Assembly (NCBI RefSeq): GCF_022829685.1
Contig: NZ_JAKSYE010000122.1
Location: 1-64,000 of the forward strand
Direction of reading: 5' to 3'
DNA: 64,000 nt
DNA from: Methylobacterium sp. E-045
GTDB taxonomy: Bacteria > Pseudomonadota > Alphaproteobacteria > Rhizobiales > Beijerinckiaceae
The notes below the pieces were generated by a model. It saw nothing but the letters and a program-made list of their open reading frames with translations, was not told where the DNA came from and searched no databases. The translations under genes and the position numbers were made by a program. Below, piece after piece: positions 2,438 to 9,915 of this stretch; position 1 is the stretch's first letter, and each line of letters opens with the position of its first letter.

Positions 2438-2841
2438 CCCAGTCGCACCCCACCAGCGGCGCCGAGCCGGATCCGGCCTGCCCGGTCTCCCTCGATCTCC
2501 TCGGGGCGGTCTATCGCGCCGAGCCCGAGGACCTGCCCGAGATCCTGGCCGAGATCCCTCCCACCACCCGCGCCAACCTCGCCGTCTACCTCTACGGCAA
2601 GAGCCACATGCATCAACTCGGCCTCTCGGTGGCCCGGGCCTGCGAGCGGGACGACCTCGTCCGGGTCGCCGGCGAGATCGGCTCGGTGGTCCACGGACAG
2701 GCGCAGATGAAGTCGGCGCGGCCAGCGGCTCCCAACCCCGCCGCCGCCCCGCCCCCCCGCAAGATCAGCCTCGGCGGCGGTTCGGCTCCGAAGAAGATCA
2801 GCCTCGGTGGATCGTCGGCGAAATCGCGCTCCTTCGATTGA
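2434..2841 (+). CDS. hypothetical protein coupled to the upstream exported protein
   Basis: 135 aa. The start ATG at 2434 overlaps the previous stop by 4 bases and is preferred over the upstream in-frame codons, which lie inside the other gene. The N-terminal ~85 residues look globular and helical (LLGAVYRAEPEDLPEILAEI). The C-terminus has a Pro/Ala linker followed by two copies of the short motif KISLGG (PRKISLGGG, PKKISLGGS). There is no signal peptide, so it is probably cytoplasmic. Function unknown. Confidence 0.7.
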   Translation: MTQSHPTSGAEPDPACPVSLDLLGAVYRAEPEDLPEILAEIPPTTRANLAVYLYGKSHMHQLGLSVARACERDDLVRVAGEIGSVVHGQAQMKSARPAAPNPAAAPPPRKISLGGGSAPKKISLGGSSAKSRSFD

Positions 2842-2975
2842 GCGCCCGCCACTGCGCGCCCGTTCGCGAGATCGTGACGCGCGAGCGGCCTTTCGATCGA
2901 GCCGGCCCTTACCGCGAAGACGGACCGCGTGACATAAGCGCGGCCATTGCGCCCGGCGGCGTGGAGAGGACTGAC

Positions 2976-3236
2976 ATGTTCGGTGCGTGGTGGAAGCTCG
3001 GCATGGATGCGACCCTGCTTGCGATGGAATCGCAGCAGGTGATCGGCCTTCGCCTCGCCAAGCTGTCCCTCGGCGGGCCGGCCGCGCAGGTCGAGGCTCA
3101 ACGCATGGTCAGCGAGAAGATCATGGCCGCCGGCGAGGCGGCCCTGCTGATGGCGACCGGAGGCTCGACCCAGAGCATGGTCACCGGATACCGCCGGAAG
3201 GTCCGCGCCAATGCCAGGCGGCTCTCGCGGGGCTGA
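2976..3236 (+). CDS. small conserved-looking hypothetical protein
   Basis: 86 aa starting MFGAWWKLGMDATLLAMESQ. The ATG at 2976 follows GGAGAGGA at ribosome-binding distance, which decides this start over the longer frame beginning at 2838. It is mostly helical, with a basic C-terminus (YRRKVRANARRLSRG). The sequence resembles the short phasin-like or DUF-type helical proteins common in these bacteria, but I cannot name a family. Confidence 0.6.
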   Translation: MFGAWWKLGMDATLLAMESQQVIGLRLAKLSLGGPAAQVEAQRMVSEKIMAAGEAALLMATGGSTQSMVTGYRRKVRANARRLSRG

Positions 3237-6857: not shown

Positions 6858-7094
6858 ATGATCCCGAGCGACGGAACGCAGACCATGCCGCAGCAGGCCC
6901 AGTCGAGCTTCGATACTCAGCATCCTTACGAGCGGATGGCGCTCCAGGACGAGGTCGAGGCCGCCGTCCAGGACGGCACGACCCCGATCAGCCGGCTGCT
7001 TCGGCTGATGTTCGCGGTCGATGCGGACGCCACGGCCAACGAGAACCTGCGCCTGCGCCTGCGTGCGCGCATCGGCGCGCCGCGCAGCGTCTGA
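6858..7094 (+). CDS. small hypothetical protein
   Basis: 78 aa, or 69 aa if translation starts at the internal ATG at 6885 (MPQQAQSS), which has better spacing from GACGGAACG. Acidic and helical, with a segment LQDEVEAAVQDGTTPISRLL and a basic end. No domain recognised. It converges with the minus-strand gene at 7103. Confidence 0.5.
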   Translation: MIPSDGTQTMPQQAQSSFDTQHPYERMALQDEVEAAVQDGTTPISRLLRLMFAVDADATANENLRLRLRARIGAPRSV

Positions 7095-7102
7095 TCGTCC
7101 GC

Positions 7103-7384
7103 CTATCGCCGCCGACGCGCGGTGCGCGGCTGCGAGCGGGTCATGCAAGCGGTATAGATCTGACGGCCGACGGCGTAGAGTCCGATCCCACCCGGGTCGG
7201 GGGTGACGAACACCTTCGCACGGGCCTCGTTGCGGCAGGCCGCGTCCTGAGGACTCTTGATCGGGGCCTCGGCCCTGGCCGGCAGCGCGATTCCCAATAA
7301 TCCCACAGCGGCCATGCCGACGATCCAGCCCCGTCGACGCACCGCCGAACTCCCACCGCACGATCCGGCCGTCTCGCCCATCAT
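7103..7384 (-). CDS. small exported protein with one conserved-looking Cys pair
   Basis: 93 aa. Residues ~18-39 (GWIVGMAAVGLLGIALPARA) form a signal peptide ending ARA-EA. The mature part holds two Cys (AACRNEARAK and YTACMTRSQ) about 36 residues apart and could form a disulfide in the periplasm. The C-terminus is very basic. No family recognised. Confidence 0.6.
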   Translation of the reverse strand: MMGETAGSCGGSSAVRRRGWIVGMAAVGLLGIALPARAEAPIKSPQDAACRNEARAKVFVTPDPGGIGLYAVGRQIYTACMTRSQPRTARRRR

Positions 7385-7479
7385 TCCCGCCCCCCGTCGT
7401 TACGGCTGAGGTAGGGCGGATCGGCGGAAAAGCGCATCGGTATTTTCCACTGAATCGGCGCTCGGGCAGGAATCCCCGC

Positions 7480-7785
7480 TTACGGCCGAATCCAGAGGCA
7501 GGAGGCCTCCCCCGTCACCGTGAGGCATTCGAACGGGGCTCCGCCGATCATGGCGCGGTGCTCGGGCGCGCCGACGCGATCGTGGGCGATCCTGCGGCAA
7601 CCGGAGTCAGCGGCGGGATCGGCCGACGCCGCGGCAGGGTCGGATTTCATCCCTCCCATCAGGACGCGCAGATGGACCAACGTATCGCAGCCGACGACAT
7701 CGCGCGGCGCGGCATCGTCGGCGGCGGCCGCCTTCGTCGCCGCCATGATGAGCAGGATGGCGATTCCCCAACGAGTTTGCGGCAT
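7480..7785 (-). CDS. small exported Cys-containing protein, paralogue of the next gene upstream
   Basis: 101 aa from the ATG at 7785 (MPQTRWGIAILLIMAATKAA, signal peptide). The mature part contains GCDTLVHLRVLMGG, an internal Cys, a DH/EH-type stretch, FECLTVTG and SCLW. The same order of features occurs in the upstream gene at 7868 (GCPSLANLRLLLRQ, Cys, DHAAL, YDCVGVTG, ICSW), so the two are tandem paralogues with four matching Cys. Periplasmic, probably two disulfides (inference). Function unknown. Confidence 0.7.
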   Translation of the reverse strand: MPQTRWGIAILLIMAATKAAAADDAAPRDVVGCDTLVHLRVLMGGMKSDPAAASADPAADSGCRRIAHDRVGAPEHRAMIGGAPFECLTVTGEASCLWIRP

Positions 7786-7867
7786 CACGGCGTGGCCTCC
7801 TCCGGCTCTGCTCCACCGGCGGGGATATAGGGCGCCCCCGGCGTCAGGGTCCGCGACCGATGAGCCC

Positions 7868-8293
7868 TCAGCGCTTGGCTTTGGCGGGAGGCGCCTTTTT
7901 GGCGGCGCGCGCAGGATCGGCCGGGACGACCGTTCCCGCGATGGTCCAGGAACAGATGCTGGTCCCGGTGACGCCGACGCAATCGTATTCGTTGCCGTTG
8001 AGCGCCGCGTGGTCGGTGATGGCATTGACCGTCTCGCGGCCGAGGAGGTTGCAGCTCAGGTGATCGGCCTTGGGATCCGCCAGGGTCGCCGCCGCGATCT
8101 TCGCGTCCCCGCCCGCTTGCCGCAGGAGAAGGCGCAGGTTGGCGAGCGACGGACAGCCGATCGCGGGCGCCGAGGTCGCTGCGGCGGCCGGGGGCGCGGG
8201 AGGCCTGGCCGGCTGCGCTTCGGCGGGCGGGAATCCGATCGCGGCCGTGAGGATCGCGGCTGTCGGAAGGTGGCGGTAAGACCCGCCGCTCAT
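7868..8293 (-). CDS. small exported Cys-containing protein, translationally coupled to the deformylase-like gene
   Basis: 141 aa. The ATG at 8293 overlaps the TGA of the upstream deformylase-like gene by 4 bases. A signal-like N-terminus (AAILTAAIGFPPAEAQ) is followed by a Pro/Ala linker and a ~80-residue core with four Cys: GCPSLANLRLLLRQ, SCNLLGRETVNAITDH, EYDCVGVTG, ICSW. The C-terminal tail is Ala/Lys-rich. The core matches the paralogue at 7480. The coupling suggests a functional link with the deformylase-like protein, although that one would be cytoplasmic unless exported. Confidence 0.7.
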   Translation of the reverse strand: MSGGSYRHLPTAAILTAAIGFPPAEAQPARPPAPPAAAATSAPAIGCPSLANLRLLLRQAGGDAKIAAATLADPKADHLSCNLLGRETVNAITDHAALNGNEYDCVGVTGTSICSWTIAGTVVPADPARAAKKAPPAKAKR

Positions 8294-8790
8294 GCCGCGC
8301 GCCTCGCCTTGGCATAGCGCTTCACGGCCCGCTCCCGCCGAAGCCGCGACAGGCGCTCGATCCAGAAGATGCCGTCGAGCTGGTCGATCTCGTGCTGGAG
8401 GCAGGCCGCCTCGAACCCCTCCGCCTCGACCTCGTGCTCGGTCCCGTCGAGGTCGGCGTAGCGCAGGCGCACGGTCACCGCCCGCTCCACGACGTCCGAG
8501 ACGCCGGGCATGGAGACGCTGCCCTCGGTCTGGGGTGCGGTCTCCTCCGACGCGAAGCTGATCTCCGGGTTGACGTAGACCGAAGCCGGCGTGCCCGGCT
8601 CCAGGCGCAGGGCCACCACGCGGGCGAGCCAACCCACATGCGGCCCGGCGAGCCCGATGGCGGAGACGCGGGAGAGGGCCTCCACCAGTTCCGCAGCATC
8701 CCGCCGCAGGGCGTCGTCGAACATGGTGACCGGCTCGGCCCGCAAGCGCAGCCGTGGATCGGGATAGAGAATCAGCGACTGGACCGGCAC
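8290..8790 (-). CDS. peptide deformylase-like protein lacking metal ligands
   Basis: 166 aa from the GTG at 8790 (VPVQSLILYPDPRLR, where family members begin); a TTG at 8853 would add 21 residues. The deformylase fold is clear: motif 1 IGLAGPHVG (normally GxGLAAxQ), motif 2 EGSVSMPG (normally EGCLSxP) and motif 3 QHEIDQLDG (normally HExDHLxG). The metal-binding Cys of motif 2 is Ser and the second His of motif 3 is Gln, so only one of the three metal ligands remains. Classical metal-dependent deformylation is therefore unlikely; a binding or regulatory role is possible. Its stop overlaps the next gene's ATG. Confidence 0.8.
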   Translation of the reverse strand: MPVQSLILYPDPRLRLRAEPVTMFDDALRRDAAELVEALSRVSAIGLAGPHVGWLARVVALRLEPGTPASVYVNPEISFASEETAPQTEGSVSMPGVSDVVERAVTVRLRYADLDGTEHEVEAEGFEAACLQHEIDQLDGIFWIERLSRLRRERAVKRYAKARRAA

Positions 8791-8897
8791 GGGGCAGGGC
8801 ACCTCACGGAATGGGCCGTGGCGTGGATACGCGATCGCTCGGGCGGTGTCCAAGGCCGCCCTGCGGATCGGTCACGACCGGGGCGCCCCCCCGTTGG

Positions 8898-9341
8898 TCA
8901 GGGTTCGGCAAAGACCTCGCGCGCGACGGCGACGGCGTTGAGGGCCGAGGGAAATCCGGCATAGGGAATCATCTGCAGGATCGTCTCGATCAATTCCGTC
9001 TGGCTCACCCCCACACGCATGGCGGCCTTCATGTGGACTTTGAGCTGGGGGCGGGCATTGCCCATCGCGGTCAGCGCCGCCACCGTGGCGATCTCGCGGG
9101 TCTTCAGGTCGAGCCCCGGCCGCGCGAAGACGTCGCCGTAGGCGAACTCGACGATGTATCGCCCGAGATCGGGGGCGATGTCGTCGAGGCTTTGAATGAC
9201 GGCCTCGCCATGCGGGCCGCTGACCTTTTCGAGCTGGGCCAGACCGCGAGCATAGCGATCTTCAGGCGCCTGTGCCCCTTCCTCGGCCGGGATCGGCAGT
9301 GCCGCCGCACCCGCCATGATCGTGCATCGATCCAGGGTCAT
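8898..9341 (-). CDS. carboxymuconolactone decarboxylase (CMD) family protein
   Basis: 147 aa. The central part matches the CMD/AhpD fold: FAYGDVFARPGLDLKTREI, ATVAALTAMGNARPQLKVH, then VGVSQTELIETILQM. This is the gamma-carboxymuconolactone decarboxylase-like branch without the CxxC of AhpD peroxidases, so peroxidase activity is not supported. Its first ~80 bases overlap the end of the MerR gene at 9262; a later ATG at 9317 would shorten the overlap. MerR+CMD pairs are usual for stress- or aromatic-responsive regulation. Confidence 0.85.
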   Translation of the reverse strand: MTLDRCTIMAGAAALPIPAEEGAQAPEDRYARGLAQLEKVSGPHGEAVIQSLDDIAPDLGRYIVEFAYGDVFARPGLDLKTREIATVAALTAMGNARPQLKVHMKAAMRVGVSQTELIETILQMIPYAGFPSALNAVAVAREVFAEP

Positions 9342-9699
9342 CGACCATTCCTTCCATGTCTCGATAGTGAGTGATCTTGGCGTCGAGTGCCGCGATCAAT
9401 CCGGCAATGTCCGTCTGCTTCTTGAGAAGGGTGGCCCGGTGCTCTTCGAGCATGTGCCGGCGCTCGCCCAAGGTCGTAGTCCCCATGGATCTCAGACGGC
9501 TATATTCGAGCCTCTTGCGCATCGGCATGTCCATGGCCTGAAGTTTCTGAAGAAACGAAGCCCAGACGAGGTCATCAATGCCATAATCTCTTCGTCCACC
9601 CCGGTCCCGCAATACTCGCGGCATGAGGCCGATACGCTCGTAATAGCGGATCGTATCGATGCTTAATCCGCTCTCTCTGGCAAAGTCGCTGATCCGCAC
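9262..9699 (-). CDS. MerR-family transcriptional regulator
   Basis: 145 aa. It starts at a GTG (9699) preceded by GAGGAGG. Residues 1-70 are the MerR winged helix: MRISDFARESGLSIDTIRYY, ERIGLMPRV, RRDYGIDDL, followed by the dimerisation coiled coil (~residues 75-115). The C-terminal tail is HDHGGCGG, with one Cys and two His, possibly an effector or metal site. It overlaps the downstream CMD gene and most likely controls it. Confidence 0.85.
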   Translation of the reverse strand: MRISDFARESGLSIDTIRYYERIGLMPRVLRDRGGRRDYGIDDLVWASFLQKLQAMDMPMRKRLEYSRLRSMGTTTLGERRHMLEEHRATLLKKQTDIAGLIAALDAKITHYRDMEGMVDDPGSMHDHGGCGGTADPGRGRGTGA

Positions 9700-9915
9700 G
9701 GCGCAACCTCCTCGGCGACCGGTTCTAGTTGTTGGAGCGCACTCCAGGTCAACAGGGAATCGTCAGCCGCTGGCGGGCGGTCTCCGGTGGCGGCGGCCAC
9801 GGCGAGATCGAGGTCGGCGGGCCGGGGCACCGCCATGCCCGTGCCCGCCTCGCCTTCCGCTTCCGCGCTCCATGCCGTAAGGCCGCGGGACACATCTCAG
9901 GACACCGACGCGCGC

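Follow-up and report, generated by a model that had tools for sequence, protein, structure and literature searches.

A peptide deformylase paralogue of Alphaproteobacteria with a fixed His50/Ser90/Gln136 site, probably kept for a role other than ordinary deformylation

The window analysed here is a 64,000-nucleotide stretch of DNA from Methylobacterium sp. E-045, and it encodes an intact homologue of peptide deformylase (PDF) in which the catalytic Gln50 and the metal ligands Cys90 and His136 are exchanged for His, Ser and Gln (H/S/Q hereafter). Comparison with its relatives suggests that this is probably a long-kept protein with a role other than ordinary deformylation and not a decaying copy. 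Most likely it is a PDF paralogue that sits on the ribosome and has a rewired site, and it would either carry out an altered chemistry on blocked nascent N-termini or bind formyl-Met without hydrolysing it. The original prediction that the gene is kept for a non-classical role stands as the best reading of the data, given that Ser and Gln are fixed, that the gene is under purifying selection, that a normal def gene lies elsewhere in the genome and that the ribosome contacts are kept.

The minus-strand frame 8290-8796 is open throughout. Its probable start is the GTG at 8790, with GAGG eleven bases upstream, so that the limits first given for the gene (8290-8790) are correct; an alternative GTG at 8802 is possible. 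The window protein matches the Pfam family Pep_deformylase (PF01327) at 134.7 bits against a cut-off of 22.8 and, with the open frame and a complete predicted fold, agrees with the earlier view of an unbroken gene and an intact fold. Searches of 7000-9800 gave no sigma-70-like promoter or terminator, a result that is little informative in such a genome. Upstream of the gene, at 8898-9699 on the minus strand, a small carboxymuconolactone-decarboxylase-like ORF overlaps a MerR-like regulator (both as judged by eye).

Table 1. Positions of the features discussed, numbered along the window; residues follow E. coli PDF numbering
Feature	Positions	Strand	Remarks
PDF-like gene with predicted rewired active site	8290..8790	(-)	166 aa, probable GTG start
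His50 codon (canonical: catalytic Gln50, motif I)	8638..8640	(-)	His in 114/114 of the clade, Gln in 49/49 canonical PDFs
Ser90 codon (canonical: metal ligand Cys90, motif II EGSVS)	8518..8520	(-)	Ser in 114/114, Cys in 49/49 canonical PDFs
Gln136 codon (canonical: metal ligand His136, motif III HEIDQ)	8380..8382	(-)	Gln in 114/114, His in 49/49 canonical PDFs
Retained His132 and Glu133	8389..8394	(-)	Invariant in 114/114 of the clade and 49/49 canonical PDFs
C-terminal helix, residues 148-164, with Leu149, Lys/Arg150, Arg153, Arg/Lys157 and Lys160	8296..8346	(-)	Model helix and conservation; contact list from a portion of PMC12690207
Small protein with four Cys, signal peptide by eye, predicted exported	7868..8293	(-)	ATGA overlap; neighbour within the genus only

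Motif I of the protein reads AIGLAGPH, motif II EGSVS and motif III HEIDQ, and the canonical Gln50 (GxGLAAxQ), Cys90 (EGCLS) and HExxH are thus all absent. In PDF, His132 is a metal ligand and Glu133 the general base. The translation bears out the predicted exchanges of Cys for Ser and of His for Gln, which replace two of the three metal ligands, and the three motifs fall outside even the relaxed motif definition found in the portions of PMC12690207 consulted. Motif I had been described as altered, which is right but understates the change, as it is the invariant catalytic Gln50 that has become His. Since Gln50 holds the formyl carbonyl (a passage of PMC13131673), this exchange is as important as those of the two metal ligands.

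In order to follow these residues across relatives, sequences were gathered by whole-protein or profile score and not by motif. The search of 298 family genomes gave 100 rows at or above 140 bits, of which 98 carried His50/Ser90/Gln136, two were canonical and none was intermediate; the 31 weaker rows that were read (20, a further 10 and the def gene of the window's own genome) were all canonical Gln/Cys/His, and the remaining weaker rows were left out of the residue counts. A clade profile built from alignment A1 (37 members) gave 14 matches at or above 224 bits in 385 genomes sampled across the class, followed by a gap to 197. All 14 were H/S/Q, as was a fifteenth genome (G555) in which a loop insert had split the match, while 16 further loci at 178 to 189 bits were Q/C/H and other weaker rows fell outside the count. 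A sample of 398 genomes across the phylum (E <= 1e-50) yielded 24 matches at or above 226 bits, again followed by a gap to 197; all of these lay within the window's own order, and the residues were read for 12 of the 24.

The pooled set comprises 117 rows (98 + 14 + 5 loci), of which 114 are distinct and in which a few genomes are counted twice. His50, Ser90 and Gln136 are each present in 114 of 114 distinct clade members, against Gln, Cys and His in all 49 canonical PDFs, and no intermediate set was found among the sequences read. The orthologues therefore keep Ser and Gln, and the restored Cys or His that had been named in advance as refuting the prediction occurs in none of the clade members read. 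Thirteen positions among residues 4-163 are invariant in the clade (L13, G45, H50, E88, G89, S90, R102, H132, E133, D135, Q136, F141 and W142), and nine of these lie in motifs I-III (G45, H50, E88, G89, S90, H132, E133, D135 and Q136). Sequencing error or chance is excluded as the cause of the exchanges because the same residues recur in independent genomes. A further 80 named loci were found partly through the pattern CLQHEIDQ, which biases them towards Gln136, and they were excluded from the fixation counts. We also discarded a search of the 385 genomes with the DNA pattern HE-x-DQ-L as too short, 127 genomes having matched, many of them apparently through one unrelated conserved word.

All 25 of the family genomes that belong to the window's genus carry the H/S/Q paralogue. 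It occurs in at least 98 of the 298 family genomes altogether and in 15 of the 385 sampled across the class, with a patchy distribution outside the genus. Named carriers, from the motif-biased set, include Methylobacterium, Methylorubrum, Microvirga, Bradyrhizobium, Sinorhizobium and Phyllobacterium, together with Bosea, Elstera, Ferrovibrio, Vineibacter and Acetobacter. The normal def gene that was expected elsewhere in the window genome was found on contig C97 (C97:262573-263067), where it adjoins an fmt-like ORF and has all motifs intact (GVGLAAIQ, EGCLS and HEIDH). Another PDF match is present in 96 of the 98 family carriers, the two exceptions (G173 and G238) being fragmented assemblies.

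A plasmid collection gave 23 matching records, seven of which were read. Intact H/S/Q genes annotated as 'peptide deformylase' lie on four plasmids, from Acuticoccus (beside a convergent efflux-pump gene), Mesorhizobium, Aminobacter and Tistrella; in the last of these (T. mobilis pTM2, L254, gene at 2504-3088) a loop carries an in-frame insert of around 24 residues built from AEAGD repeats. The Methylobacterium bullatum record holds a canonical def. Sinorhizobium meliloti record CP090106.1 (L250) also carries an H/S/Q gene; this record, labelled plasmid pSymB, is 3.72 Mb long with two PDF places and is probably a mislabelled chromosome. On Mesorhizobium huakuii plasmid p_1 (L256) the copy around 1355-1842 is frameshifted and unannotated, so the clade can decay on plasmids. 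The PDF-like gene is dispensable, as its patchy occurrence beyond the genus and the frameshift in one plasmid copy show. The idea that the window gene is itself a plasmid-borne copy was set aside, as genome G275 has a 98%-identical relative on a contig of 4.97 Mb.

In a tree of 67 PDFs (35 H/S/Q and 32 canonical) all H/S/Q proteins fall on one side of a branch with SH-aLRT support of 100, and this branch retains support of 97/98 (bootstrap/SH-aLRT) when 12 diagnostic columns are removed. Rooting on E. coli places it among alphaproteobacterial PDFs, with many weak forks in the backbone. The branch lies closest to two canonical PDFs on long branches (support 93), and the tree does not fix the sister group. 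By this phylogeny the H/S/Q proteins are one clade among alphaproteobacterial PDFs, best explained as an old alphaproteobacterial side-branch of the enzyme.

Across 45 genome pairs, dN/dS ranged from 0.11 to 0.48 for the paralogue and from 0.015 to 0.42 for def, with large dS in the distant pairs, and the paralogue exceeded canonical def in 43 of the 45. By this measure the paralogue is under purifying selection and less tightly constrained than def. The higher ratios, the replaced key residues, the patchiness outside the genus and the frameshifted plasmid copy would all suit a decaying, functionless duplicate of def. However, decay would be expected to vary the exchanged sites, whereas all 114 distinct members carry the identical replacement set and form one clade, and dN/dS stays below 0.5 in all 45 pairs; we regard such a duplicate as very improbable.

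The AlphaFold2 model computed on A1 has a complete fold (pLDDT 95.9, pTM 0.90). Its best 50 structural matches are all PDFs, and it superimposes on E. coli Fe-PDF (1xen) with Z 26.4 and an rmsd of 1.4 Å over 164 aligned residues (model 1-165 on chain 1-165). The protein is thus like canonical type 1B PDF (E. coli Def, EC 3.5.1.88, PF01327) in its fold, in the C-terminal α-helix (148-164 in the model) with its ribosome contacts, as expected of type 1B, and in His132, Glu133, Gly45, Glu88 and Gly89. It is unlike that enzyme in Gln50 to His, Cys90 to Ser, His136 to Gln, Leu141 to Phe and Phe142 to Trp, each in 114 of 114 clade members, and in the Gly that the clade has at position 95 (113/114). 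Part of the cleft, including the S1' pocket, is changed as well, with Arg for Ile86 in 67 of 114 and Val for Leu91 in 104; Arg97 is unconserved in the clade and likewise in the 49 canonical PDFs.

The ribosome-contact residues of E. coli PDF are listed in the portion of PMC12690207 seen. At the corresponding positions the clade has Leu149 in 112 of 114 members and a basic residue at 150 (114/114), 153 (114/114), 157 (110/114), 160 (113/114) and 163 (92/112). For the first five contacts the commonest residue has a mean frequency of 0.895, compared with 0.694 over the remaining helix positions, and the same five in the 49 canonical PDFs give 0.910 against 0.662. Because the C-terminal helix is kept, we infer that the H/S/Q protein binds where PDF does, at the exit tunnel next to uL22.

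Could such a protein still be an ordinary deformylase? The activity of Salmonella PDF requires Cys90, and a C90S variant fails to rescue a zinc-stressed efflux mutant that PDF itself rescues (sections of PMC7683392), while def could not be deleted from wild-type M. extorquens (PMC8153426, as excerpted). Since that gene is undeletable and all 25 genomes of the genus carry the paralogue, carriage by M. extorquens being taken from the genus, the paralogue seems unable to stand in for def. By analogy with these two systems, and because of what they show, it probably does not work as an ordinary deformylase.

A related suggestion is that a different metal or geometry makes the protein a deformylase resistant to nitric oxide, peroxide, zinc or hydroxamate inhibitors, serving as a back-up to def. 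Cys90 is the S-nitrosylation site in Salmonella PDF (PMC7683392, in part), resistance to inhibitors is conferred by some accessory PDFs and type 3 PDFs have been suggested to use alternative metals (both in the accessible parts of PMC12690207), and the gene occurs on some plasmids, once with the efflux-pump neighbour of Acuticoccus. Against this, the Cys90 to Ser exchange alone stops the Salmonella rescue, no back-up of def is evident in M. extorquens under laboratory conditions, and all three motifs lie beyond the relaxed definition; we consider a resistant deformylase improbable.

A third possibility leaves hydrolysis out altogether: the protein would dock at the ribosomal site of PDF, bind the formyl-Met ends of nascent chains in its retained cleft and so delay or tune the real PDF. 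Its ribosome contacts and Gly45, Glu88 and Gly89 are kept and two of its three metal ligands are lost, and M. extorquens becomes more resistant to formaldehyde when its PDF activity is lowered (PMC13131673, from the part available), so a natural brake could be useful. Yet His132 and Glu133 are invariant and the new residues are conserved as strictly as catalytic residues, and formaldehyde biology is special to methylotrophs whereas the clade includes Sinorhizobium, Bradyrhizobium, Acetobacter and Elstera. We hold this non-hydrolysing reader of formyl-Met to be somewhat unlikely.

The reading that we tentatively prefer, at somewhat less than an even chance, is a ribosome-docked side-branch of PDF that is no ordinary deformylase and whose rewired site still performs chemistry on a blocked nascent N-terminus. 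On this view the protein keeps its fold, the helix for docking on the ribosome and some of the substrate cleft, while the Cys90/His132/His136 metal site and the oxyanion residue Gln50 would have given way to the fixed set His50, Ser90, His132, Glu133 and Gln136. Sitting at the exit tunnel beside uL22, the pocket might hold a metal through His50 and His132 plus Gln136 or Ser90, or might form a Ser90-His-Glu133 acyl-transfer site; in either case the blocked nascent N-terminus would be its target. Continued chemistry in the pocket is suggested by the gain of a His at 50 alongside the loss of one at 136, and by the strict conservation of His132 and Glu133. Had the protein been reduced to binding, absolute retention of these two residues would be unexpected, so from the conservation pattern a rewired and still reactive site appears somewhat likelier than a protein that merely binds.

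The stronger form of the preferred reading, a PDF-fold enzyme with a new catalytic site (either a metal site with two His, created by the swap between positions 50 and 136, or a Ser90-His-Glu133 site that needs no metal) working from the ribosome on blocked nascent N-termini in many alphaproteobacteria, is doubtful on the sequences at hand. We know of no such chemistry elsewhere in the PDF fold. The weaker constraint than in def, the partly changed S1' pocket, the patchiness and the narrow pass of TIGR00079 (below) all count against the preferred reading, as does the activity of some type 3 PDFs with altered motifs (PMC12690207, portions). Both the reactive-site and the binder readings predict an effect on N-terminal processing.

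The original prediction had also drawn attention to a translational coupling with a gene for an exported four-Cys protein. The stop of the PDF-like gene does overlap the ATG of that gene, as ATGA at 8290-8293, but a meaningful partnership is not borne out, for the overlap is present in only seven of 110 loci, all in the closest clade, and 74 of the 110 show no such gene in the stretch covered. A four-Cys homologue lies downstream of the PDF-like gene in 36 of the 110 loci, those with a name being from Methylobacterium or Methylorubrum and the others from the window's genus, and a homologue is present in 58 of 59 genomes of the genus. Clustering of 80 loci gave no neighbour common beyond single clades and neighbours that differ from clade to clade; in Sinorhizobium the PDF-like gene is divergent from mgtE. 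As far as these loci go, the coupling is local to the genus. A functional pair, with the PDF-like protein acting for instance as a maturation factor for the four-Cys protein, would fit the overlap in the window and in six other loci of the closest clade (some possibly the same gene twice) and the adjacency in 11 of the 15 genus genomes for which both places are known. It is hardly probable, however, given the loci that lack a partner (some on short stretches), the four of 15 genus genomes in which the partner family lies elsewhere and the unrelated neighbours outside the genus.

At the thresholds used, the four-Cys product itself matches no family of Pfam, NCBIfam or PHROG, and a paralogue of it lies downstream at 7480-7785. 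Three small ORFs stand in a row at 7103-8293 on the minus strand, with N-termini of exported type (by eye) and 4, 4 and 3 Cys; the first two are paralogues, 29-38% identical, and searches placed them in no known family.

Current annotation gives H/S/Q proteins the NCBI name 'peptide deformylase'. The NCBIfam equivalog of that name, NF009484 (PRK12846.1-5), matches all 37 members of A1 (E <= 1e-10). It scores the window protein at 234.5 against a cut-off of 190 and also passes the canonical def of the same genome at 199 bits; it does not separate H/S/Q from canonical def, and its name implies an activity for which the motifs give no support. The general deformylase equivalog TIGR00079 is passed narrowly (107.6 against 103.95), and a phage family search returned only the general PDF family phrog_2890. 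In Swiss-Prot/HAMAP, certain rhizobial PDF homologues are flagged as lacking active-site residues under the name 'Peptide deformylase-like'.

Other variant PDFs differ from the clade. The type 3 PDFs (of trypanosomatid mitochondria and Archaea, with the inactive accessory PDFs of S. aureus and S. pneumoniae) share with it substituted motifs and often weak or no activity (PMC12690207 and PMC5591237, both in part). As described there, however, they are diverse and unconserved in C-terminal length, whereas the clade has one fixed motif set and a conserved helix. The accessory PDFs, Def2 of Vibrio and those of integrons, are likewise second genes beside a normal one and sometimes plasmid-borne, but Def2 and the three integron PDFs tested are active, with changes in inhibitor-binding residues or at Ala48 (PMC12690207, excerpts). 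That survey of accessory PDFs, from 2025, finds its updated motifs in around 80% of PDFs and discusses type 3; the portions examined do not single out the H/S/Q clade, and its main text has no word beginning 'rhizobi'. The parts seen of PMC3382624 and PMC3024229, on other deformylases, hold nothing on the clade, and a search by title, abstract start or passage, covering few subscription journals, found no literature on it.

Proteins of methylotrophs, rhizobia and plasmids are thus annotated as an essential drug target although they lack its metal site. If the H/S/Q protein docks at the exit tunnel, it would take part, so far unrecognised, in the first step by which nascent proteins are processed. 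The clade also offers a natural experiment on how the site of a metal hydrolase can be rebuilt when His and Gln trade places. A natural competitor of PDF would matter physiologically in Methylobacterium, in which formaldehyde resistance changes when PDF activity is lowered (PMC13131673, in the portion consulted).
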